DNA of 42,353 nt. It comes from an uncultured Hyphomicrobiales bacterium. GTDB taxonomy: Bacteria > Pseudomonadota > Alphaproteobacteria > Rhizobiales > Beijerinckiaceae. Positions 926 to 20,885 of the stretch are shown piece by piece (positions within the stretch are counted from its first letter, which is position 1; each line of letters starts with the position of its first letter). Position numbers and translations under genes: made by a program. The stretch is taken from NCBI GenBank assembly GCA_903885755.1, contig CAISJZ010000394.1:1-42353 (forward strand). The letters are read 5' to 3'. The notes beneath the pieces were generated by a model. It was not told the origin of the DNA. It made no database searches and saw only the letters and a list, made by a program, of their open reading frames with translations.

Positions 926-2947
926 ATGATGGTCGCGGCGCAAGTCCCCGCGCTGGCGCTTTTCGTCACGATCGCCGCCTACGCGCTGACCGCCCTCGTC
1001 ATCGCCATTTTCCATCGCCGCGCGCTGGCGGTCGCCTACCCCGTCTGCATCGCCGCCGCGGCGGTCGCGAGCGTCGCGGATCTGGTCGCGCTGGCGAGCG
1101 TGGCGGACGCCCATTTCACCCTGCCACTGGGCCTGCCGACCATTGGCCTGCGTCTGCGGCTCGACGCCCTCTCGGCCCTCTTCGGCCTCATCGTCAATGT
1201 CGGCGTGCTGGCGGCGTCGATCTACGGACTTGGTCTTGATCGCGATCATGATCTGTCGCCGAGAATCGAGCCGATCTTTCCGGCCTTCGCCGCCGCGATG
1301 AATCTGGTGCTTGTCGCTGACGACGCCTTCTCGTTTCTGTTTTTCTGGGAGCTGATGTCGCTGTCCTCATGGGCCCTCGTCGTGGCGCGCCACGACGATC
1401 CCGCCAGCCGCCACGCCGGCCATGTCTATCTCGTCATGGCGGCCATCGGCACGGCGGCGCTGCTCTTTGCCTTCGGCGGACTCGCTGGCCCGGCGGGCGA
1501 CTATTCCTTCGCGGGCATCCGCGCCGCCTCCCACACATCGATCGTTTCGGGCGTGGCGCTGACGCTCGTCCTGATCGGCGCGGGTTCGAAAGCAGGCCTC
1601 GCCCCGCTGCACGCCTGGCTGCCGCTCGCCCATCCCGCTGCGCCAAGCCACGTCTCCGCCCTGATGAGCGGCGTGATGACGAAAGTCGCGATCTACGCGG
1701 TTATCCGCGTCGTATTCGATCTGCTGGGCGCGCCGGAGTGGTGGTGGTCGCTGCCATTTCTCATCCTCGGCGCGATCACCGCGGTGCTCGGCCTGCTCTA
1801 TGCGCTGCTCGACAATGATCTGAAACGCGTACTCGCCTATTCCACGGTCGAGAACATCGGCATTATTTTTGTCGGCCTTGGTCTTGCCCTCGCCTTCCGA
1901 TCAACGGGCCTTGTCGCTTCCGCCGCGGTGGCGTTGGCCGCGGCGCTGCTGCACGCCCTCAATCATTCCTGGTTCAAGTCGCTGCTGTTCCTTGGCGCGG
2001 GCGCGGTGCTGCACGCCACTGGCCGGCGCGATTTCGATGGGCTCGGCGGGCTCATCCACAAGATGCCAAAAACCGCCGCATTCTGGCTCGTCGGCGCCAT
2101 GTCGATTTCGGCCCTGCCACCATTCAATGGATTCGTGTCGGAATGGCTGCTGTTTCAGGCGGTGCTGACCGGTCCAAGCTTCCCCGAGCCCGTGCTGCGT
2201 TTTCTCTCGCCCGCGGTCGGCGCGATGCTGGCGCTTGCCGCCGCCCTCGCCGCGGCGTGTTTCGTGCGCGCTTATGGAATTGTATTTCTGGGTCGCCCGC
2301 GCGATCCCGCCGCCGCGAACGCCCATGACGCGCCGCGCGCGCAACTCGTCGCCATGGCGATCCTCGCCGGCCTTTGCCTTTTCGGCGGATTGTTCGGCGC
2401 GCTGATCGTCCCGCTTCTGCAACCCATGCTGGTCGCCTTCGCGGGCGCGGCCATGCCGGCCGCCGGCGCGGGTCCGACACCCTTTTCGCTCGTCGCCTTC
2501 TCCGCCGAGCGCAGCACTTACGACGCGCCGACGATCGCGGCATTCCTGCTGACATCCGGCTTTCTCACGACCTGGCTGGTGCATCGCGTCTCCAGCCGCC
2601 GCACGCGACGCGCGCCGGCGTGGGACTGCGGCTTTCCCGAACCCTCGCCGCTGACACAATACACCGCGTCGAGTTTCAGCCAGCCGCTGCGGCGAGTTTA
2701 CGGCGGCTTCGCGTTCGGCGCGGTCGAGCGCGTCGACATGCCCGCGCCCGGGGACTCGCGCCCCGCCCGCCTGATCGTGACGCAACGCGACTACATCTGG
2801 GACGCGCTTTACGCCGCGCCGGCGCGCGCGGTTCTCGCGCTGTCGCTGCGCCTCAACATGTTGCAATTCCTCACCATCCGAAACTACCTCGTGCTGATGT
2901 TTTCGGCCCTGATCATTCTGCTCCTCATCGCCGCGGCGTGGTTCTGA
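926..2947 (+). CDS. hyfB: Hydrogenase-4 component B-like / antiporter-type membrane subunit (NuoL/M/N family)
   Basis: Multi-TM protein with 'FFWELMSLSSWALV', 'GSKAGLAPLHAWLPLAHPAAPSHVSALMSGVMTKVAIY', 'NHSWFKSLLFLGAGAVLHATG'; first gene of a hyf-like operon. Confidence 0.9.
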   Translation: MMVAAQVPALALFVTIAAYALTALVIAIFHRRALAVAYPVCIAAAAVASVADLVALASVADAHFTLPLGLPTIGLRLRLDALSALFGLIVNVGVLAASIYGLGLDRDHDLSPRIEPIFPAFAAAMNLVLVADDAFSFLFFWELMSLSSWALVVARHDDPASRHAGHVYLVMAAIGTAALLFAFGGLAGPAGDYSFAGIRAASHTSIVSGVALTLVLIGAGSKAGLAPLHAWLPLAHPAAPSHVSALMSGVMTKVAIYAVIRVVFDLLGAPEWWWSLPFLILGAITAVLGLLYALLDNDLKRVLAYSTVENIGIIFVGLGLALAFRSTGLVASAAVALAAALLHALNHSWFKSLLFLGAGAVLHATGRRDFDGLGGLIHKMPKTAAFWLVGAMSISALPPFNGFVSEWLLFQAVLTGPSFPEPVLRFLSPAVGAMLALAAALAAACFVRAYGIVFLGRPRDPAAANAHDAPRAQLVAMAILAGLCLFGGLFGALIVPLLQPMLVAFAGAAMPAAGAGPTPFSLVAFSAERSTYDAPTIAAFLLTSGFLTTWLVHRVSSRRTRRAPAWDCGFPEPSPLTQYTASSFSQPLRRVYGGFAFGAVERVDMPAPGDSRPARLIVTQRDYIWDALYAAPARAVLALSLRLNMLQFLTIRNYLVLMFSALIILLLIAAAWF

Positions 2948-3912
2948 TGGGCGAGACCGTCACACTCCTTGCCGGGCAGTTGATCCAGATGTTTCTGGTG
3001 CTGCTGCTGGCGCCCGGCGTGACGGGCCTCGTCCGCCAGACGAAGGCGCGCTTCATGCGTCGGCGCGGCGCGCCAATCATTCAACCCTATCGCGACCTCA
3101 TCAAGCTCGTGCGCAAGGAATCGGTGCTCGCCAACAACGCCTCGTGGCTGTTCCGCTCGGCTCCCTACGCGATACTGGCCTTCACATGGGTCGCCGCGGC
3201 CCTCGTGCCAACCTTCGCGGCGGGATTGATGTTCAACTGGGCCGCCGATGTCGTGGCGCTCGTGGCGCTGCTGGGCGCGGCGCGCGCGCTGCTGGCGCTC
3301 GCCGCCATGGATATCGGCACGAGTTTTGGCGGCATCGGCGCATCGCGCGAGATGATGATCGCGACGCTCGCCGAACCCGCGATGCTGCTCGTCGTACTGA
3401 CGATGGCGCTGACGGCGGGAACGACGCGTCTGCCGGAAATCGCCGGCTTTCTGATCGCCGCGCCCTTCGCCGTGCGCGCGTCGCTGGCGCTGGCGCTGTT
3501 CGCCTTCCTGATCGTGGCGCTGGCGGAAAACGCGCGCATTCCCGTCGACAATCCCGCCACGCATCTGGAACTCACCATGGTGCACGAGGCCATGGTGCTG
3601 GAATATTCCGGTCGTCATCTCGCGATGATCGAACTCGCGGCGCAATTGAAGCTCGTGCTGTATCTCTCGCTCATCATCTGTCTGTTCCTGCCGTTGGGAA
3701 AGGCCCCGGCGGAAGCCGGTCCGGCCGTCTGGGCGATGGGCGCGTTCACGCTCGTCCTCAAGCTCGCCGCGGGCGCGATACTGCTGGGCGCCTGGGAAGT
3801 CAGCATCGCGAAGATGCGCGTCTTTCGCGTTCCGGATTTTCTCGGCGGCGCTTTCGTGTTCGCCTTTCTGGCGATCCTGCTCGCCTTCCTGACCGGCGAG
3901 GTGTTCAATTGA
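2947..3912 (+). CDS. hyfC: HyfC/HycD-like membrane subunit (NuoH family)
   Basis: ATG overlaps the upstream TGA (ATGA); 'PIIQPYRDLIKLVRKES', 'IPVDNPATHLELTMVHEAMVLEYSGRHLAMIELAAQLKL' typical of HycD/HyfC. Confidence 0.92.
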   Translation: MGETVTLLAGQLIQMFLVLLLAPGVTGLVRQTKARFMRRRGAPIIQPYRDLIKLVRKESVLANNASWLFRSAPYAILAFTWVAAALVPTFAAGLMFNWAADVVALVALLGAARALLALAAMDIGTSFGGIGASREMMIATLAEPAMLLVVLTMALTAGTTRLPEIAGFLIAAPFAVRASLALALFAFLIVALAENARIPVDNPATHLELTMVHEAMVLEYSGRHLAMIELAAQLKLVLYLSLIICLFLPLGKAPAEAGPAVWAMGAFTLVLKLAAGAILLGAWEVSIAKMRVFRVPDFLGGAFVFAFLAILLAFLTGEVFN

Positions 3913-4568
3913 CGCACGCCTATGAAGTCTCGCATCTGCTCGCCGGCCTCATGCTGGTCGCGAGTTTTTCGCTGCTCTATCAGGATCGCATCGCCTCGGT
4001 GCTCAACACCTTCGCCGTCCAGGCCATTCTTCTGTCCATGGCCGTCGGCTGGGAGGCGTGGACCCAGCAACGGCCGCACCTGTTCATCACGGCGGCGCTG
4101 GCGCTTGGCCTCAAGGGCATTATCATCCCCGTCGCGTTGCACCGGATGATCGCGAAACTTGGCGTTCATCGCGACGTGGAGAAAGTCGTCGGCGTCGGCA
4201 CCACCCTGATGATTGGTCTCGCGCTGACCTCCCTGTCGCTGCTGCTCGTGCTCAAGGTCACCGCGGCGGCCGAATCCTTCACGCGCGAAGGACTCGCCCT
4301 GGCGCTGGCGATCATCCTGCTGGGCTTGCTGATGATGATCACGCGGCAGAACGCGGTGACGCAGATCGTCGGCTTCATGTCGCTTGAGAACGGCCTCATC
4401 CTCGCGGCGACCGGCGCGCGCGGCATGCCGCTCGTCGTCGAGGTCAGCGTGGCGTTTTCCGTTCTCATTGCGTTGTTCGTCTTCGCCGTCTTCGTGTTCC
4501 GCATTCGCGAACGGTTCGACAGCGTCGATATCGAGGCGCTTGATCGCGTCAGGGGCGATCGCGGATGA
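3909..4568 (+). CDS. hyfE: HyfE-like membrane subunit (NuoK-like)
   Basis: TTG start overlapping the upstream TGA (TTGA); small multi-TM protein in the hyfE position, 'MSLENGLILAATGARGMPLVVE'. Confidence 0.87.
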   Translation: MTHAYEVSHLLAGLMLVASFSLLYQDRIASVLNTFAVQAILLSMAVGWEAWTQQRPHLFITAALALGLKGIIIPVALHRMIAKLGVHRDVEKVVGVGTTLMIGLALTSLSLLLVLKVTAAAESFTREGLALALAIILLGLLMMITRQNAVTQIVGFMSLENGLILAATGARGMPLVVEVSVAFSVLIALFVFAVFVFRIRERFDSVDIEALDRVRGDRG

Positions 4569-6001
4569 TCACGCCCCTCGCGCTTGTCATCGTCATTCCC
4601 TTCGCCTCGGCCATTATCATGGCCCTGATCGCGGATTACCGGATTTCGGCGATCGGCAACATGCTCGCCATGTTCGCGACCCTTGACGCGGGGCTCATGT
4701 TGCCGTTCGGCCCGCGCGAGGTCGGCGATTATTTCATTCTCGACGAGGTGAACATCCTGTTTCTTATCCTGAATACCCTGGTGGGTTTCACCACGTCCGT
4801 GTTCAGCGCGAGCTACATCGGTCACGAGATTGAAACCGGCAAGCTGACGCCGCTGCTCGTGCGTTTCTATCACGCGATGTTTCTTGCGATGATGGGATCG
4901 ATGAATCTGGCGCTCGCGGCCAACAATATTGGCCTTTTGTGGGTTGGACTTGAGATGGCGACGCTGATTACCGTCGTCATGGTTGGGCTCTACCGCACGC
5001 CCGCCGCCATCGAGGCCGCGTGGAAATATTTCATTCTCGGCAGCGTCGGCATTTCGCTGGCGTTCTTTGGAACCATCCTTATTTATCTCGCCGGGCAGAA
5101 GGCCCTTGGCGAGGGTGTTCCCGCCATGACGTGGAGCCTGCTACTGGCCGCCGCGCCGCAACTTGACGCCTCGCTGGTCAATCTGGCGTTCGTCTTTCTG
5201 CTGATCGGCTATGGCACGAAGGTGGGCCTCGCGCCGCTCCATGCATGGCTGCCCGATGCCCACTCCGAAGGCCCCACGCCGATCTCCGCCGTGCTGTCGG
5301 GATTGCTGCTGAATGTCGCGCTCTACGCGCTGCTGCGCTTCAAGATGATTGTCGCGGCCCATCCCGGCGCCATGAACCCCGGCGCGATCCTGATCGTCAT
5401 GGGCCTGATCTCGCTGATCTTCGCCGCCTTCATGCTATACCAGCGACCCGACATCAAACGCCTCTTCGCCTATTCCTCGATCGAGCACATGGGGCTCATC
5501 ACCTTCGCCTTCGGCATGGGCGGCCCGCTCGCCAACTTCGCCGGCCTCTTGCACATGGCCATGCACAGCCTCACGAAATCAGCCATTTTCTTCACGGTCG
5601 GTCACATCGCGCAAGCCAAGAACAGTCAACGCATCTCGGACATACGCGGCCTGAGTGTTTCCCATCCGGCGCTGGCGCTGGGCCTCGCCGCCGGCGTCAT
5701 CGCGATTTCCGGCCTGCCTCCGTTCGGCGTGTTCATGAGCGAGTTTCTCATTCTCACCACGACCTTCGCGCGCCAGCCCTGGCTGGCGCTGTTCCCGGCC
5801 TTCGGCCTGCTCGTCGCTTTCGGCGCCTTGTTGCTGCGACTTCAGGACATGCTGTTTGGCGAACCGGCCGAACCCTCGCATCCCGTCAAAGCCTCATACG
5901 CGCCGCTTATCCTGCATCTCGCGCTCGTGCTCTGCGCCGGCCTCTATCTGCCGACCGCGCTGATCGCATGGTTCCAGCGCGCCGCGGAGCTGCTGCAATG
6001 A
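4565..6001 (+). CDS. hyfF: HyfF-like antiporter-type membrane subunit (NuoL/M/N family)
   Basis: Overlaps the upstream gene by 4 nt; 'GLLWVGLEMATLITV', 'GYGTKVGLAPLHAWLPDAHSEGPTPISAVLSG', 'AYSSIEHMGLI'. Confidence 0.92.
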   Translation: MITPLALVIVIPFASAIIMALIADYRISAIGNMLAMFATLDAGLMLPFGPREVGDYFILDEVNILFLILNTLVGFTTSVFSASYIGHEIETGKLTPLLVRFYHAMFLAMMGSMNLALAANNIGLLWVGLEMATLITVVMVGLYRTPAAIEAAWKYFILGSVGISLAFFGTILIYLAGQKALGEGVPAMTWSLLLAAAPQLDASLVNLAFVFLLIGYGTKVGLAPLHAWLPDAHSEGPTPISAVLSGLLLNVALYALLRFKMIVAAHPGAMNPGAILIVMGLISLIFAAFMLYQRPDIKRLFAYSSIEHMGLITFAFGMGGPLANFAGLLHMAMHSLTKSAIFFTVGHIAQAKNSQRISDIRGLSVSHPALALGLAAGVIAISGLPPFGVFMSEFLILTTTFARQPWLALFPAFGLLVAFGALLLRLQDMLFGEPAEPSHPVKASYAPLILHLALVLCAGLYLPTALIAWFQRAAELLQ

Positions 6002-7515
6002 GCGATCTCACACCGCTCGCCATCGCCGAACGCGCCGCCGGCCTGGGGGCCGGGACCGATGGCTTCATTCGCGCCGACGTGAACGAGGCCGACTGGACGC
6101 GCCTCGCGATGGGCTGCGTCGGAGGGCTGCACGATCTCGGCGCCATCTGGTTCGACGCCGGCGCCGCGCGAATGCTGCTCGTCGATCGCCTGGCCGGTCT
6201 GCGCGTGATCATTTCCTTGGCGACGACCAACGGCGCCTATCCCGCCGTGTCGCGCCACCACGCGCCCGCGCAACGGCTGGAACGCACGCTGCGCGATCTC
6301 GGCGCCGGCGATCCCCAGGGCATGCCGGATGCGCGCAACTGGATCGATCACGGCGCCTGGCCCATCGCGGCGCCGGGCCAGACACATGCGCGGCCAACAA
6401 CGGACTATAAATTCCTGCCGATCGAGGGCGACGGCTGGCATCAGATTCCCGTGGGGCCCGTGCACGCCGGCATTATCGAGCCCGGTCACTTCCGGTTCAC
6501 CGCCAATGGCGAACTCGTCGTGCGACTGGAAGAGCGCTTGGGCTACGTCCACAAGGGCGTTGAAGCGCTCTGCGACGGCGCGGGTCTGGACCAGGCGGCG
6601 CGCGTCGTGGCGCGCATCTCGGGCGATGCGACCGTTGCGTATTCATTCGCGTTCGCGCTCGCCGTTGAGGCTGCGCTCGACTGGACGCCGCCGCCCCGCG
6701 CGACTCTCCTGCGTGGCGTGATGGCCGAACTTGAACGCCTGTCCCATCACATCAATGATGTCGGGGCCATCTGCAACGACGCCAGCGTTGTCGTGCTGCA
6801 GGCGCATTGCGCGATCCTGCGCGAGGACATCCTGCAAACCGCGGCGCGTTGCTTCGGCCATCGCATGATGATGGATCGCATTATTCCCGGCGGCGTCGCG
6901 GTCGATCTGCCGTCCGGCGGCGCGGCGATGATCGAGGCGTTGCTGGCGCGCTGCGAGCCAGCCTTCGAGGAAATCGTGCGCGTCTACGACAATTCGCCGT
7001 CGTTGCAGGATCGCACGGTCGCCACCGGAGTTACTTCGCCCGATCTCGTCGCGCGATTCGCCGCCGGCGGCTACGTTGGCCGCGCATCCGGCCGCACCTT
7101 CGATGCCAGACGAAATTTTCCCCACGCGCCTTATGGCGGATTCGATCTCAAAATCGCTGGCCGAACGGAAGGCGACGTCAATGCGCGACTCTGGGTGCGC
7201 GTCGAGGAGGTCAGAGCCAGCATGGATCTCATTCGCTGGATGCTGAAGGAATTGAAGCCGGGCGATATCATGACTCCCGCGCCCATATTGGCCCACGAGG
7301 AAAAACATGGCGCGGCAATGGTCGAGAGCTTTCGCGGCGACGTGTTCATCGCCATCCGCGTTGATGCAAACAACCGTGTCGCGCGGCTGCACGCGCGCGA
7401 CCCGTCCTGCTTTCAATGGCCCCTTCTGGAAGCCGCCGTCGAGGGCAATATCGTCGCCGACTTCCCCCTGTGCAATAAATCCTTCAACTGCTCCTACTCC
7501 GGGCACGATCTGTAG
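5998..7515 (+). CDS. hyfG: HyfG/HycE-like large subunit (NuoC-like plus NuoD/large-subunit domains) lacking NiFe cysteine ligands
   Basis: ATG at 5998 overlaps the hyfF stop; N-terminal NuoC-like region, then 'GYVHKGVEAL', 'LERLSHHINDVG'. The L1 position reads RISGDATVAYS and the C-terminus SFNCSYSGHDL instead of CxxC motifs. Confidence 0.92.
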   Translation: MSDLTPLAIAERAAGLGAGTDGFIRADVNEADWTRLAMGCVGGLHDLGAIWFDAGAARMLLVDRLAGLRVIISLATTNGAYPAVSRHHAPAQRLERTLRDLGAGDPQGMPDARNWIDHGAWPIAAPGQTHARPTTDYKFLPIEGDGWHQIPVGPVHAGIIEPGHFRFTANGELVVRLEERLGYVHKGVEALCDGAGLDQAARVVARISGDATVAYSFAFALAVEAALDWTPPPRATLLRGVMAELERLSHHINDVGAICNDASVVVLQAHCAILREDILQTAARCFGHRMMMDRIIPGGVAVDLPSGGAAMIEALLARCEPAFEEIVRVYDNSPSLQDRTVATGVTSPDLVARFAAGGYVGRASGRTFDARRNFPHAPYGGFDLKIAGRTEGDVNARLWVRVEEVRASMDLIRWMLKELKPGDIMTPAPILAHEEKHGAAMVESFRGDVFIAIRVDANNRVARLHARDPSCFQWPLLEAAVEGNIVADFPLCNKSFNCSYSGHDL

Positions 7516-7521
7516 GCCGCC

Positions 7522-8037
7522 ATGCGCTCGCTGCTTCTGCGTTCACTGCTTCAGGGACTGGCGGTCATCGATCCGCCCGCGCCCGGCGGCGATGCGCTCG
7601 CTGAACTGACCAGGGCGCTTGGCGATCTGTCGCGCGGAAAACTTGGACGCTCGCTGGCGATCCGCGAGGTGGACGCGGGTTCGTGCAATGGCTGCGAACT
7701 CGAAATCCACGCGCTGAACAATCCGGTTTATGATGTCGAGCGCTTCGGTATTAGGTTCGTGGCCTCGCCCCGCCATGCCGACGTTTTGATGGTGACCGGG
7801 CCCGTTACGTGGAACATGAAGACGGCGCTGGAACGCACTTATGCCGCGACTCCCGCGCCCAAATGGGTCGTGGCGATCGGCGATTGCGGCGTCAATTGCG
7901 GCGTCTTCGCGGGCAGTCACGCAGTCGTCGGCCCGGTCGCCGCCGTCGTGCCCGTCGATCTGCATATTCCCGGCTGCCCGCCGCCGCCGATCGAGATTCT
8001 TAAAGGCCTGATCGGGCTTGTCGACGGGATGGCGTAA
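7522..8037 (+). CDS. hyfI: HyfI/HycG-like small subunit (NuoB family), proximal 4Fe-4S ligands present
   Basis: 'DAGSCNGCELEIHALNNPVYDVERFGI...GDCGVNCGVF...IPGCPPPPIEIL'. Confidence 0.92.
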   Translation: MRSLLLRSLLQGLAVIDPPAPGGDALAELTRALGDLSRGKLGRSLAIREVDAGSCNGCELEIHALNNPVYDVERFGIRFVASPRHADVLMVTGPVTWNMKTALERTYAATPAPKWVVAIGDCGVNCGVFAGSHAVVGPVAAVVPVDLHIPGCPPPPIEILKGLIGLVDGMA

Positions 8038-12963: not shown

Positions 12964-13135
12964 TTCATCCTCCCTTTTGTCCTTTCCGACAGAAAAGCAC
13001 GTGGGAGGCGCCCACGCCAGCATCACGTGTCAATCCGCGAATGTTCGCCAAAGGACGGGAAAGGCGCTAGGCTCTCGTCCAGCAAGGGGAAACGCTCCGG
13101 AATTTCAAGGCGGCGCCGCGCCGCTGGAGCCTGTC

Positions 13136-14014
13136 GTGATTTCACTCCGGATCCACCACCGCACCACCTATCGCTACCATCAGCCGGTCTGGCTGGGCCC
13201 GCATCGTCTCATGCTGCGTCCACGCGAGAGCCGCGATTTGCGCCTGATATCGAGCGAGGTCACGGTTTCGCCGCCAGCCGTCGTCTCCTGGGCGCATGAC
13301 GTCTTCGGCAACGCCGTCGCGACCGCCGTCTTTCAGGGCATGGCCGACCATCTCGTAATCGACAGCTTCGCGGAACTGGAGCTCAACGCGGTGGCGTGGC
13401 CGCTGTTCGATATCGACCCCTCGGCCATGGTCTATCCCTTCCGCTACTCCAACGATGAATGGACCGATCTCGGCGCGCTCACCGCCCAGCAATATGTCGA
13501 TCCGGGCGGTCGTTTGCGCGACTGGGCCCGGGGCTTCGTGCGCGGCGTCTCGACCGACACCCTCGCCTTGCTCAAGGACCTGAACGCGGGTGTCGCGAGC
13601 TGGATTTCGTACCAGAGTCGCGACGACGAAGGCACGCAATCGCCGAACCAGACGCTCGACCGCGGCTGGGGGTCGTGCCGCGACTTCGCGGTGCTCTTCA
13701 TCGAGGCCGCGCGCAGTCTCGGCTTTGGCGCGCGGATCGTCTCTGGCTATCTCTACAATCCGGACATGGCCTATCTCGGCTCCAGCGGCGCGGGATCGAC
13801 CCACGCCTGGGCGGAGGTCTTCGTGCCCGGCGCGGGCTGGATCACCTTCGACCCCACCAATCGCGGCGTCGGCGGCTCCAATCTCATTCCCGTCGCGCTG
13901 ACGCGGGACATCCGCCAGACCATGCCCGTCTCCGGCAGCTTCGTCGGCATGACCGATGCATTTCAGGGAATGTCGGTCGAGGTGTCGGTCATGCCCACCA
14001 CCCTGACGGGCTGA
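13136..14014 (+). CDS. Transglutaminase-like family protein (N-terminal bacterial transglutaminase domain plus core)
   Basis: Cys-His-Asp triad context '[15 protein letters not shown]', '[15 protein letters not shown]', 'TFDPTN'; GTG start at 13136. Confidence 0.9.
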
Positions 14015-14186
14015 GAAAGCACGGCGCCGCATTTTCATGCGGATTCGGCGCGCGCATTGATCAGTTTGCGCTAATAACCGGCGGAAGCGCTTGATCGCCT
14101 GTCGTTTAAATTGACAGATGATCAGGCGCGGCGGCAAATCGAGGCAGGCGCATATTCCAGCGCGCAATCGGAAAGCAGCTCATATC

Positions 14187-17100
14187 GTGTCGATCCAGGT
14201 CGCTCTCCATCACGTCACCCACTACAAATACGACCGTCCGATTTCGCTCGGTCCCCAGACCATACGATTGCGTCCGGCGCCCCATTGCCGTACGCGCGTG
14301 CCTGGCTATTCCCTAAAAATTCTGCCGGCCGGCCATTTCATCAACTGGCAGCAGGATCCGCACGGCAACTGGCTGGCCCGGCTGGTGTTCCCGGAAAAGG
14401 CGACGGAATTCCGCATCGAGGTCGATCTCCTCGCGGAACTTGCCGTCTATAACCCCTTCGATTTCTTCGTCGAACCTTACGCCGAGGAATTTCCCTTCGC
14501 CTATACGCCGGAACTGGCGACCGAGCTTGCTCCCTATCTCGAGGTCGCGCCGGGCGGGCCGGCGATCGAGGCTTACGTCGGCGGCATCTCGACCGAAAAG
14601 ACCCGCATCATTCCATTTCTGGTCGGCCTGAACACGCGCCTGCAAAACGATATTCAATATGTCATCCGCATGGAGCCGGGCGTTCAGGACCCCGACGAAA
14701 CCCTGACGCAGCGCTCGGGTTCCTGCCGCGATTCGGCGTGGCTGCTGGTGCAGATCATGCGGCGGCTCGGGCTCGCGGCCCGCTTCGTATCGGGCTACCT
14801 CATCCAGTTGAAGGCCGACGTCGATCCCATTGAGGGACCAAGGGGCACGGACCACGACTTCACAGATCTTCACGCCTGGGCGGAAGTCTATATCCCCGGC
14901 GCCGGGTGGATCGGCCTTGACGCAACCTCGGGGCTCTTCTGTGGCGAGGGTCATCTTCCGCTTTGCTGCGCGCCGCACTATCGCTCCTGCGCGCCGGTCA
15001 CCGGCATTGTCGAACCCGCGAATGTTGAATTCGGTTTCGAGATGAAGGTCGAGCGCATTCGTCAGGCCCCGCGCGTCACCGCGCCCTTTTCCGATGAAGC
15101 GTGGACCCGCCTCGATCAACTCGGTCAGGCGGTCGACAAGGACCTCGAGGCGCAAGACGTGCGCCTCACCATGGGCGGCGAGCCGACGTTCATTTCGATC
15201 GATGATTTCGAAGCGGCTGAATGGAACACCGACGCCGTCGGGCCAACCAAGCGCGAATACGCCGACGCTCTCATTCGCAGGCTGACGGCGCGCTTCGCGC
15301 CCGGCGGCTTCCTGCACTACGGACAGGGCAAGTGGTATCCCGGCGAAAGCCTGCCGCGCTGGGCTTTCGCGCTTTACTGGCGCAAGGACGGCAAGCCGAT
15401 CTGGAAGAATCACGCCCTCGTCGCGGGCGTGTCGGGCGCCCACGAGGCGACGCCGGCGCTGGCGGGCGCCTTCGCCAACGACCTCTCCAGACGCCTTGGC
15501 CTGGGAGAGGAATTCGTTATTCCCGCTTACGAAGACCCCGTTCACTGGATCGCCAAGGAGGGTGCCCTTCCAATCAATGTCAATCCCGACGATCCAAAGA
15601 TCAACGACCCCGAGGAACGCGCCCGGATGATCCGGACCTTCGAGCGGGGGCTTACGACGCCGGCCGGCTATGTTCTGCCAATTCAGCGCTGGAACGCCGC
15701 GGCGACTTCGCGCTGGCGCTCCGAGCGCTGGCCGATGCGGCGGGGCCAACTGTTCCTCGCGCCCGGCGATTCGCCAGTTGGATTGCGATTGCCGCTGAGT
15801 TCCCTTCCCTGGGCGCCGCCCTCCGCATACGCGTACATCCATCCACAGGACTCGCTGGAAGACCGCGACGATCTTCCGGACTTCTCGCGCGCAAGGCCGA
15901 TGATGCGCGCCATCGCGACGCCTCAGGCGCCCGAGACGCCCGGACAGGAAGTCCATGAACAGACCGCGGATGACAAAGGCCTGGTGCGAACCGCCATGAC
16001 GATCGAGCCGCGCGATGGCGTGCTCTGCGTCTTCATGCCGCCGGTTTCCCGGCTCGAGGATTATCTCGATCTTCTCGCCGCCGTCGAGGAGACCGCGAAC
16101 GACGCCGGATTGCCCTTGCACATCGAGGGCTATCCGCCACCGGTCGATCCGCGCATCGACGTCGTCAAGGTGACGCCCGACCCCGGCGTCATAGAGGTTA
16201 ATATTCATCCAGCCGCCTCGTGGCGCGACGCCGTCGCCACCACCACCACACTCTACGAAGAGGCTTTCCAGGCGCGGCTGACCACCAGCAAATTCATGGT
16301 GGATGGCCGCCAAACGGGCTCGGGCGGCGGCAACCATGTGGTGCTCGGTGGCCAGACCCCCGCCGATTCGCCGTTCCTGCGCCGTCCGGACCTGCTCAAA
16401 AGTCTCGTTCTCTACTGGCAGCGGCATCCGTCGTTGTCCTACCTGTTCTCCGGTCTGTTCGTCGGGCCGACGAGCCAGTCGCCGCGCGTCGACGAAGGAC
16501 GCCACGACGGGCTCTACGAGCTGGAGATCGCGCTCGCCAGCGTGCCCGCACCCGGCGCCACGGGTTTTCCCCTCTGGCTGGTCGACAGGCTGTTCCGGAA
16601 TCTTCTCGTCGACATGTCCGGCAATACCCATCGCGCGGAAATCTGCATCGACAAGCTTTATTCGCCCGACGGCCCGACCGGACGTCTCGGGCTGGTCGAA
16701 TTCCGCGCCTTCGAAATGCCGCCGGACGCGCGCATGAGCCTCGCGCAGCAATTGCTGCTGCGGGCGCTGATCGCCTGGTTCTGGCGCGAGCCGCAGCAGG
16801 GCGGCTTCGTGCGCTGGGGAACCACGCTGCATGACAAATTCATGCTGCCGCATTTCGCCTGGGAGGATTTCATGGGCGTCCTCGCCGATCTGCGGCGCGG
16901 CGGCTATCATTTCGAGCCGGAATGGTTCGAGGCGCAGCGTGAATTCCGCTTCCCGCTGGCGGGAATGGTCGAACACGGCGGCGTGCGCCTCGAGGTCCGG
17001 CACGCGCTCGAACCCTGGCTGGTGCTCGGCGAGGAGGGCGCGTCGGGAGGAACCGTCCGTTTTGTCGATTCGTCGGTCGAACGGCTGGAAATAAAGGCGC

Positions 17101-17498
17101 GCGGCTTCGTGGTGGGCCGGCATGTCATTGCCTGCAATGGTCGTCGGGTCCCCATGACGAGCACCGGCGCCTCCGGGGAAGGGGTCGGCGGCGTCCGCTT
17201 CAAGGCCTGGCAGCCCCCCTCCGGGATGCATCCGACCATCCCGGTTCACGCGCCGCTGACCTTCGATATCATCGATTCCTGGAGCAATCGCTCGCTCGGC
17301 GGCTGTGTTTACCATGTGACGCATCCCGGAGGTCGCAATCACGATACATATCCGGTAAACTCCTTCGAAGCCGAAGCACGGCGGCTCGCGCGATTCCAGG
17401 ATCATGGCCATACCCCTGGGCGCGTGGTCCCGCCGCGCGAGGAAATCGCGGGAGAATTTCCGCTGACGCTGGATCTGCGGAGGACTCTTGCCTTTTAA
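14187..17498 (+). CDS. Transglutaminase-like protein fused to a DUF2126 C-terminal region
   Basis: N-terminal '[16 protein letters not shown]', core '[12 protein letters not shown]...[24 protein letters not shown]', long C-terminal region with '[15 protein letters not shown]', '[33 protein letters not shown]'; GTG start at 14187. Confidence 0.92.
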
Positions 17499-20007
17499 GC
17501 GCCAGATCGAACCCGACGACGCTGCTCGCGCGCGGCGCATCGGGACATGGATTTCTGGCTACCGGACCGTAACCGGCGTTCCCGATGAGTTGATCGGACC
17601 AGATGGTAACCCGCGACCTCACTGGCTGACGTTCCTGGAGACGCTCGCCGGTCTTGGCGACGACGATATCGAGCAACGCTTCGCCGCCGCCGGGCGCCGA
17701 ATCAATGACATGGGCGTCAGCTACCGCGTTCTTGGAGAGGCGCGGGAGCGCACATGGCGCCTCAGCCAACTGCCGCTGCTGTTGCCTGAAGCCGAATGGA
17801 GCGAGATCGCCGCCGGGATCGCCCAACGCGCCGAATTACTCGATCTCGTCCTGAAGGACGTCTATGGCGATGGACGGCTTGTCGCAGAAGGCGCGGTGCC
17901 AGCGGCCACGGTCGCGGGATCGCAGGACTTCATCCGGCCCATGCGAGGCGTGGCGCCGCCCGGCGGTCGCTGGCTGCGATTTTACGCGGCTGACATCGGG
18001 CGTGGACCCGACGGCAAATGGTGGGTGCTGGGCGATCGCGCCCAGGCGCCTTCCGGTTCCGGCTATGCCTTGCAGAACCGGCTAATTCTGTCGGGCACCT
18101 TTCCGACCCTCTATCAGGACATGAACGCGCAACGCCTCGCGCCATTCTTCCGCGACTTTCGCGCCGGTCTGGCGGGCTCGGCACAGCGCAGCGAGCCGCG
18201 CATCTGCCTTCTGACGCCAGGTCCTTACAGCGAGACCTACGCGGAACAGGTCAATCTGGCCCGCTATCTCGGGCTTCTGCTCGTTGAAGGCGAGGATCTC
18301 GTCACAAGCGAAGGTAAGCTCTACGTGCGCACGATAGCGGGCCTTAAACGCGCCGACGTCCTGTGGCGACGCGTGGACGCCGACTGGTGCGACCCGCTTG
18401 AACTGAACGCGGGCTCACGGTTGGGCGTGCCCGGACTGCTGGACGCCATCCGCCAGGGATCGGTCGCCGTGGCGAACATGCCCGGCTCGGGCCTCATCGA
18501 GTCGCGCGCTCTGATGAGCTTTCTGCCATCGCTCGCCAAGCGTTTGCTCGGCGAGGACCTGCGGCTTCCCAACGTCGCGACCTGGTGGTGCGGCCAGGAG
18601 CAGGAGCGCGAGGAAATCCTCGATTCCCTCGACGAGCGCGCGATCAGCGGCGCTTTCGTCGACCGGATGCCAGGCTTTCCCGATCGCGACGCGATGGTCG
18701 GCACGGAACTCGACCCTGATACGCGCGCGCGCCTTGTCGCCGCGATCCGCGACCGCGGAATGGATTTTGTCGGGCAGGAAGTCGTGCGGCTGTCGACGAC
18801 GCCGACATGGAACGATGGCGTTCTGTCGCCGCGCCCCTTCGCCTTGCGCGTCTTCGCCGCCGCCACCGCCGATGGCTGGAAAGTCATGCCCGGCGGATTC
18901 TGCCGGATTTCCGATCGCCTTGATGTCCGCGCGGTGTCCATGGACGCGGGCGCGCAATCCGCCGATGTCTGGGTGCTCGGCGAGCGGCTCGCGGAACCGA
19001 CAACCCTGTTGCCGCCGACCGATGGCGGGCACATTGTCCGGGTGCTGGGCAGCCTGCCAAGCCGGGCCGCCGACAACCTGTTCTGGATGAGCCGCTATCT
19101 CGAACGGGCCGAGGCCACGTTGCGAATCGTCCGCAGCCTCTGCAACCGGATGACCGACGCCCGCTCGGTCGGTCAGGGCGGCCACGAACCGATCGAGGAT
19201 CTCCGCCGTCTTCTCGTGGCGTGGGGCGCGGTCTCCGAGGAATCCCTCGAGGAACCGCCCGCAGAAACCGCGCGCGCCGCCGCGACCGATATTGAGGAAT
19301 ATGGCTCGGTCCTGTCCATCGCGCGTCAAACCAAGCACGCCGCCTCGATCATTCGCGAGCGACTGTCGCAGGATGTCTGGCAATTGCTTGGCCGGCTGGA
19401 AAATAGATTGGAACAGCTCGCGCGACATGCCGCGTCCGAACCCGAAATTCTGGAACATGCCGAACGCGCGCTGCATACACTCGCGGCGCTGTCCGGTCTC
19501 ATCAACGAAAACTTCAACCGCGTCGCTGGCTGGAGCTTTCTCGACATGGGAAAGCGCGTCGAGCGCGCCATCAATACGTGCCGGTTCGCCCGCCAGTTCG
19601 CGGACGCACAGGCCACGATGGAGTCTCTCGATACGCTCATGGAGCTGATCGATTCACAGATCACCTACCGCTCGCGATACCTCGCGGGCGCGGCGCTGGC
19701 TCCGCTGCTCGACATGGCGATTCTCGATCCCTTCAATCCACGTTCGGTTGGATTTCAGGTGGCTCGTATCGACGACCATCTCGCCGCCTTGCCCTCCCTG
19801 CTGGACGACGGCGTGATGGAGCCGCAGCGACGCCTCGTCGTGCGCCTGCGCGCCGAGCTTGAATCCGAGGACGCCCGCAAGCTCGACTCCACGCGTATTC
19901 TGTCGATCGAGCAGCGTTTGATGCAGCTCGCCGAAGCCATCGGCGATCGCTATTTCTCCCAGGGCGCCCGTATCGAGCGCGTCGACAAGGCGTCCGGTCT
20001 CGCGTGA
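17488..20007 (+). CDS. Circularly permuted ATP-grasp type 2 protein fused to alpha-E (DUF403) domain
   Basis: '[38 protein letters not shown]' and '[27 protein letters not shown]...'; TTG start with GGAGGA upstream, overlapping the previous gene by 11 nt. Confidence 0.9.
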
Positions 20008-20885
20008 TTTACGATATCCGACACATCACGACCTATCGCTATGCCGCGCCGGTCGCCTCGGCGCGCTGCTCAATTCGCCTGTGGCCGCGCCAGGATTCCG
20101 ACCAGACGGTAATCAGCGCCGGAATCGACGTAACGCCCGCGCCAGTGCAGCGGCGGGAAAGCGTCGACTTTTTTGGCAACCGCGTCATCGAGGCGCGAAT
20201 CGGTTCGCCCCACACGAAACTGCGTATCGAACTCGCCGCGCGAGTCGACGTGCGACGCGCGCAGACGCCAGCCCCGGGTCTGACGCCGGCCTGGGAGCTG
20301 GCCCGCGACGCCGCGATCGACATGCAATCGCTCGACACCATGGCTCCCGTCCATTTTGTTTTCCCCAGTCGCCGCGTTGCCCTGAGCGATTCGATTACGA
20401 CTTATGCCCGCGAAAGTTTTTCGGCCGGGCGGCCCGTGCTTGAGGGCGCGGCGGACATGATGCGCCGAATCCACGCGGAGTTTTCCTACGATCCCGAAGC
20501 AACCGAAGTCTCGACGCCGCTCGCGGAGGCGTTCCAGAGACGCGGCGGCGTTTGCCAGGATTTCGCGCATATCATGATCGCCGGGCTGCGCGGACTGGGT
20601 CTCCCCGCCGCCTATGTCAGCGGCTATCTCCGAACCATCCCGGCGCCGGGCAAGCCACGCCTTGAAGGCGCGGATGCCTCGCACGCCTGGGTCGCGGTCT
20701 GGTGCGGCCCCGTATTCGGCTGGCTGCAGCTTGATCCGACAAACGCGCTCATTGTCGGCAATGACCATATCGTTATCGCGATCGGGCGGGATTACGCCGA
20801 TATCTCACCGATCCATGGTGTCATTCTGGCCTCTGGCAAGCAAAGCCTCGATGTCAGCGTCGACGTGAAGGCCGTCGACGCCTGA
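20004..20885 (+). CDS. Transglutaminase-like family protein
   Basis: '[16 protein letters not shown]', 'GGVCQDFAHIMIAGLR', 'ASHAWVAVWCGPVFGWLQLDPTN'; GTG start overlaps the previous TGA (GTGA). Confidence 0.92.
   Translation: MIYDIRHITTYRYAAPVASARCSIRLWPRQDSDQTVISAGIDVTPAPVQRRESVDFFGNRVIEARIGSPHTKLRIELAARVDVRRAQTPAPGLTPAWELARDAAIDMQSLDTMAPVHFVFPSRRVALSDSITTYARESFSAGRPVLEGAADMMRRIHAEFSYDPEATEVSTPLAEAFQRRGGVCQDFAHIMIAGLRGLGLPAAYVSGYLRTIPAPGKPRLEGADASHAWVAVWCGPVFGWLQLDPTNALIVGNDHIVIAIGRDYADISPIHGVILASGKQSLDVSVDVKAVDA

Follow-up and report, generated by a model that had tools for sequence, protein, structure and literature searches.

Reports of six-gene hyfBCEFGI clusters date back to 2010 or earlier (PMC2864759, PMC5596200, PMC7735108). 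Complexes of the Ehr type devoid of CxxC motifs are likewise an acknowledged group, of unknown function (PMC6349859, PMC10284858). In Cupriavidus metallidurans CH34 (Rmet_4666-4671) and C. necator H16 (H16_A2196-A2201), a role of this cluster in lithotrophic growth was deemed very unlikely (PMC2864759), and the catalytic subunit of the Acidithiobacillus ferrooxidans cluster (DN052_15040-15065) was classified as a non-hydrogenase by HydDB (PMC7735108). In Geobacter sulfurreducens, the Ehr complex (GSU0739-0745), whose role was never investigated, increases in abundance on formate (PMC7894505). Nitrospira harbors hyfBCEFGI-type clusters (PMC5596200) and an Ehr large subunit lacking CxxC motifs (PMC10284858), and FDH-Ehr complexes were proposed for lineages sibling to Cyanobacteria (PMC6349859). 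The Ehr-type complex is therefore not new, and its hydrogenase function has been doubted or denied in C. metallidurans and At. ferrooxidans; in the open-access literature, we found no paper reporting a tested function for it. The present work adds a clade-wide signature, the loss of both known types of active site with retention of the cluster and channels, and a set of culturable carriers.

The window, i.e., the whole stretch of 42,353 nucleotides analyzed here, from an uncultured Hyphomicrobiales bacterium, carries a hyfBCEFGI operon at 926-8037, in which six frames overlap or nearly touch, with pth (peptidyl-tRNA hydrolase) upstream and an isocitrate-lyase/PEP-mutase-type gene on the other side. 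Its features are as follows:

926-2947, plus strand: antiporter-like membrane subunit of 673 aa, HyfB-like (NuoL-type), matching PF00361 and, above cut-off, NCBIfam hydrogenase 4 subunit B
2947-3912, plus strand: HyfC-like (NuoH-type) membrane subunit (PF00146, NADHdh), its ATG overlapping the hyfB stop
3909-4568, plus strand: HyfE-like (NuoK-type) membrane subunit (PF00420, weak; NCBIfam hydrogenase 4 membrane subunit, below cut-off with an E-value of 3e-23), with a probable TTG start overlapping the hyfC stop
4565-6001, plus strand: antiporter-like membrane subunit of 478 aa, HyfF-like (NuoM/N-type), matching NCBIfam hydrogenase 4 subunit F above cut-off
5998-7515, plus strand: EhrL, a large subunit of 505 aa that resembles HyfG/HycE/NuoCD but is devoid of [NiFe] ligands (intact frame, homology, alignment, predicted fold)
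6613-6633, plus strand: L1 region of EhrL, RISGDAT instead of R-x-C-G-x-C (sequence reading and alignment)
7474-7515, plus strand: L2 region of EhrL, NKSFNCSYSGHDL-stop instead of ...S-L-D-P-C-Y-S-C-T-D-R, its end corresponding to the HycE processing point
7522-8037, plus strand: EhrS, a small subunit of 171 aa resembling HyfI/HycG/NuoB (above cut-off for PF01058 and the NuoB subfamily)
7684-7977, plus strand: N2-type [4Fe-4S] ligands of EhrS, Cys55/Cys58 (CNGC, 7684-7695), Cys122 (GDC, 7885-7887) and Cys152 (PGCPP, 7975-7977)

These six genes run without a gap, and the operon contains no gene for HyfA, HyfH/NuoI, HycH or HycI and none for the NADH module (NuoE/F/G). Its GC content (62-66%) is like that of the remainder of the contig, and the same six-gene set recurs in most relatives, as well as in R. 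johnstonii, Methylovirgula and B. pyrrocinia. Judged from its genes and ligand residues, the complex is of the Ehr type, with a large subunit deprived of the [NiFe] Cys, an N2-type small subunit, antiporter-like and NuoH-like subunits and no NADH module. On the same grounds, it is neither a group 4 [NiFe] hydrogenase, which would have two CxxC motifs and the Hyp maturation machinery, nor a complex I, which would have the quinone Tyr/His of NuoD, with NuoE/F/G and NuoI in the operon.

The alignment of EhrL with its E. coli counterparts located the replaced ligands. Where HycE and HyfG read RVCGICG and DPCYSCTDR-M..., EhrL reads RISGDAT and NCSYSGHDL-stop (C-terminus S-F-N-C-S-Y-S-G-H-D-L-stop at 7480-7515), the columns C-G-x-C becoming S-G-D-A and D-P-C-x-x-C becoming N-C-S-Y-S-G, so that the four ligand Cys positions hold Ser208 (TCG, 6619-6621), Ala211 (GCG, 6628-6630), Ser499 and Gly502. 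An earlier note on this DNA, made from the sequence alone, had read both CxxC pairs as lost at these places and had proposed inspecting the ligand columns against HycE, HyfG and NuoD. The intact frame and the alignment agree with that reading, no Cys pair being present at the [NiFe] positions of EhrL and no CxxC pair in any of 73 aligned EhrL sequences. The stray Cys that it had pointed out in L2 is indeed there, as Cys498, which falls on the Pro of DPC in an unconserved column (C/G/L/A across the Ehr family). A point absent from that note is that the stop codon of EhrL coincides with the processed C-terminus of HycE, i.e., the protease cut point, and EhrL would thus need no processing. This end point is compatible with a non-hydrogenase rather than proof of one, because some other group 4 large subunits, such as AzAOR, end there as well.

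Replacement of these ligands is a property of the whole family and goes far beyond what chance could produce. A homologue search, restricted to one genome per species, yielded 73 loci including an archaeal outlier (L075), and the Ehr alignment comprised 73 sequences (72 loci and the window protein), the relatives originating from alpha-, beta-, gamma- and zetaproteobacteria. With single exceptions only, L1 reads R-x-S-G-D-(S/T/A)-(T/S), while L2 reads NKS-x-N-x-SYSG-x-DL followed by a stop in nearly all complete rows; a lone Cys occurs in the ligand columns of a few rows at most (RICGDST in L070, SGDC in L068), and no Cys is invariant anywhere in EhrL. Near-invariant residues of the family were Ser208, Asp210, Asp254, Asn260, Asp293, Asp468, Glu478, Asn493, Lys494, Asn497 and Gly502. 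The gene had been described in the earlier note as not decayed, in line with this replacement motif common to the 73 sequences and with a dN/dS of about 0.1-0.3 among close relatives, which indicates purifying selection. In a maximum-likelihood tree, where membership was tested using C. metallidurans and other plasmid-borne copies as references, the Ehr rows without exception formed one clade (support 100/99) apart from HycE/HyfG and NuoD; those of C. metallidurans, R. johnstonii and Methylovirgula belong to it.

The companion subunits have kept their own key residues. All four N2-type Cys of EhrS are kept in every relative with an aligned small subunit, and in the membrane subunits the Glu/Lys/His residues that line up with the proton channels are at least 95% conserved across the family: E142, K222, K300, H347, K351 and E406 of the HyfB-like subunit are at least 96% conserved, E130, K219, K298 and E393 of the HyfF-like subunit are conserved, E159 and E177 of the HyfE-like subunit are invariant, and the acidic chain of the HyfC-like subunit (E143, D201, E208, E214, E219) is conserved. 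At the position of NuoH E218, a Glu in HyfC/NuoH, this last subunit has an Ehr-specific invariant His206.

With [NiFe] and quinone ligands absent (see below for the latter), cluster ligands and channel residues present and purifying selection at work, the window probably encodes a non-hydrogenase, redox-driven, ion-translocating Ehr complex, a reading to which we give a probability of about 0.62. That such a complex would be unable to act as a [NiFe] hydrogenase, as the earlier note had proposed, agrees with the clade-wide ligand loss, with the lack of HypD and of any true [NiFe] large subunit in the host assembly and with that of HyfA, HyfH, HycH and HycI in the operon; its two further proposals, redox activity and ion pumping, find indirect support in the invariant N2-cluster ligands and in the invariant channel residues, respectively. 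In the mechanism that we infer, from redox activity and carrier to substrate and ion pumping, four membrane subunits of the complex I/Hyf type would be associated with a NuoB-like subunit bearing one [4Fe-4S] cluster and with a NuoCD/HycE-like subunit whose nickel-iron site is permanently rebuilt. The exposed N2-type cluster would most likely exchange electrons directly with a low-potential carrier in solution, ferredoxin or flavodoxin, since neither a NuoI/HyfH-type subunit nor an NADH module is encoded. The cluster would then reduce or oxidize a small substrate in the rebuilt pocket, and a conformational or electrostatic change would move ions through the HyfC-E-F-B channels. Against such a redox pump, no conserved gene for a redox partner adjoins the operon, and the N2 cluster could be structural instead. 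As to the pocket, SGD(S/T)T / NKSxNxSYSGxDL might represent a third solution of an ancient fold, neither Ni-Fe nor quinone, in which the substrate site next to the N2 cluster would be free of metal or bind differently. Through it, many aerobic proteobacteria would drive ion pumping by a redox reaction not yet discovered, a conjecture that has the odds somewhat against it.

From a structural point of view, EhrL found its best sequence match of known structure in 7z0s_E (E 4e-47), the HycE subunit of formate hydrogenlyase from E. coli, with NuoD/Nqo4 and MbhL ranking next. Its AlphaFold model (mean pLDDT 86) likewise matched full-length 7z0s_E best (TM-score 0.89 by query length, E 1.6e-29), and reached a TM of 0.8 with the NuoCD fold. 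Pfam made no call on the NuoC-like N-terminus, yet the alignment of the predicted fold with full-length HycE favors the fused domain proposed in the earlier note. Loop 154-163 and the last five residues were modelled at low confidence, and we therefore claim no pocket geometry. In complex I, the quinone head is bound by Tyr87 of Nqo4 (RIEY in NuoCD), and His38 in a loop of Nqo4 is the second established quinone residue. In EhrL, Gly209 replaces this Tyr and Ile160 the His of the beta1-beta2 loop, both being invariant in a 37-sequence alignment, and the cavity thus bears neither the [NiFe] nor the quinone signature. The loss of the quinone residues had not been mentioned in the earlier note. 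These two replacements, together with the His at the NuoH E218 position and a separate NuoD in the host genome, weigh against a ferredoxin:quinone (or quinol:ferredoxin) oxidoreductase resembling a minimal complex I, in which quinone would enter the former [NiFe]/Q cavity via non-usual residues. We consider this alternative unlikely, even though the NuoCD fold of EhrL, a largely conserved membrane arm, the NuoH-like subunit with most of its acidic residues conserved and the aerobic, quinone-containing lineages that carry Ehr would all suit it.

A gradient- or redox-assisted handling of inorganic carbon (CO2 hydration/bicarbonate), as in DAB or CO2-uptake NDH-1 complexes, was considered with regard to one Methylococcaceae MAG (L059:2002-20499), where the Ehr operon adjoins, as read by eye, two SulP-type transporters and a beta-carbonic anhydrase, with further HyfB/HyfF-like genes resembling a DAB set beside it. 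The rebuilt pocket is moreover polar (Ser, Asp, Lys, Asn). However, this arrangement concerns 1 of 73 loci, the association with RuBisCO among alphaproteobacterial genomes was weak and not significant (5/27 with Ehr vs 26/310 others, p 0.09), no RuBisCO was found in the host genome, and the kept N2 ligands would be left unexplained, making this role very improbable. A degenerate, functionless former hydrogenase would account for the loss of all four metal ligands, but such a pseudogene is rejected as contradicted by the selection data, the near-invariant new motif in 73 sequences and the intact companion subunits. A true hydrogenase with unusual metal ligands, for which homology and the overall HycE-like fold speak and nothing else, is rejected too, considering the ligand loss across the clade, the absence of any invariant Cys in the large subunit and the failure to find HypD in the host genome.

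Regarding that genome, neither HypD nor a genuine [NiFe] large subunit turned up in the 4.39-Mb assembly (completeness 92.5%, contamination 5.8%), where EhrL was the sole PF00374 match, below cut-off. The complex was present in 5 of the 37 genomes listed under the host's genus and in 27 of 337 sampled alphaproteobacterial genomes (about 8%), and Rhizobium and Azospirillum often carry it on plasmids; this distribution suggests that the operon is often lost or transferred. HypD was absent from 19 of these 27 genomes. It was nevertheless enriched among them (8/27, p 1e-4), as was nifH (5/27, p 8e-4), which we ascribe to a shared lifestyle because most carriers, including the host, have neither. 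Genes for 2-oxoacid:ferredoxin oxidoreductases were found in 22/27 Ehr genomes vs 127/310 others (p 6e-5, raw with respect to genome size), which weakly hints at ferredoxin; since hypD and nifH were enriched too, genome size and lifestyle act as confounders here, and we name ferredoxin as the carrier of the Ehr complex only tentatively.

Clustering of neighboring genes revealed no redox partner common to lineages. The only widespread neighbor, in alpha-, beta- and gammaproteobacteria, was a small XRE-type helix-turn-helix protein (about 80-100 aa), encoded directly 5' of hyfB (L003, L004, L020, L021, L026, L029, L030, L037, L039, L047, L049, L051, L063, L067, L094, L095) or on the opposite strand (L038, L040, L048), and absent near the operon in the window. 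Downstream of one operon (L062), pyruvate:ferredoxin oxidoreductase and GltD-like genes were read by eye, which is suggestive only. On plasmid pHY1 of Methylovirgula sp. HY1 (L095:1-6207), a second F-type ATP synthase operon, N-ATPase-like in its order, lies directly upstream of the Ehr operon, again no more than a suggestive case, and in a zetaproteobacterium MAG (L068:2589-6703), a tandem pair of HyfB-like genes precedes the remaining operon. In the Thiotrichaceae/Thiomargarita group the operon is split, EhrL lacking an adjacent EhrS in L060 and any other Ehr gene on the contig stretch in L065 (20 kb) and L069 (6.6 kb).

Two further plasmid loci deserve mention. Mycobacterium branderi pJCM12687 (L097:7881-10196) carries a six-gene Ehr-like set with a large subunit lacking CxxC (ERVEGIAS; FGLCYAGVAM-stop) and a small subunit that has lost all N2-cluster Cys (SNGSDE, VGTDAI, PGAPAS) and has a fused N-terminal ferredoxin-like domain; going by these motifs, this complex may make no use of an N2 cluster at all. 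On an Azospirillum oryzae plasmid (L101:1-7371), genes for an aldehyde ferredoxin oxidoreductase and for a MoaD/ThiS protein adjoin that of a large subunit of group 4 type, in which all four Cys are present (VCGIC, DPCISCTDR-stop); this may be an aldehyde-driven hydrogenase. Elsewhere in the window, 12977-20885 holds a cluster of transglutaminase, DUF2126 amidoligase and circularly permuted ATP-grasp plus Alpha-E genes, opposite to which a 1075-aa open frame (14313-17540) is probably a GC-rich shadow.

Ehr complexes thus stand as an unexplained relative of complex I, and the present clade is found in about 8% of the sampled alphaproteobacterial genomes as well as on plasmids of rhizobia and Azospirillum. 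In databases, its EhrL goes under the names 'HypE', 'NADH-quinone oxidoreductase subunit C' or 'nickel-dependent hydrogenase', and the signature motif allows such misannotated 'hydrogenases' to be dropped from surveys of H2 metabolism. This clear motif and the existence of cultured carriers (Rhizobium johnstonii 3841, Cupriavidus) make the substrate question testable.

Among known systems close to the window complex is that of C. metallidurans CH34, whose EhrL, encoded on a megaplasmid/second replicon and about 42% identical, bears the motifs RVSGDST and NKSFNLSYAGHDL-stop and belongs to the same clade and six-gene set. The C. necator H16 cluster has the same six genes (a likeness of gene set only), as does that of At. 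ferrooxidans (gene set and description). The Nitrospira Ehr, likened by description, shares the gene set but adjoins CO dehydrogenase in one genome, unlike the window. The Geobacter Ehr is similar in gene content, being Ech-hydrogenase-related with NuoL-like, HyfE-like, large and small subunits, but differs by its seven locus tags, including at least EhrA-1 among NuoL-like subunits. E. coli hydrogenases-3 and -4 (HycE, HyfG) share the fold, the fused N-terminal domain and homologous subunits, whereas their four Cys, HycF/HyfH and HycB/HyfA Fe-S subunits, HycI processing and Hyp maturation have no equivalent in the window. Complex I, finally, shares with Ehr the NuoB/CD/H/K/L/M homologues, the N2 cluster and the channel residues, whereas its NADH module, NuoI-like subunit and quinone Tyr/His are its own.
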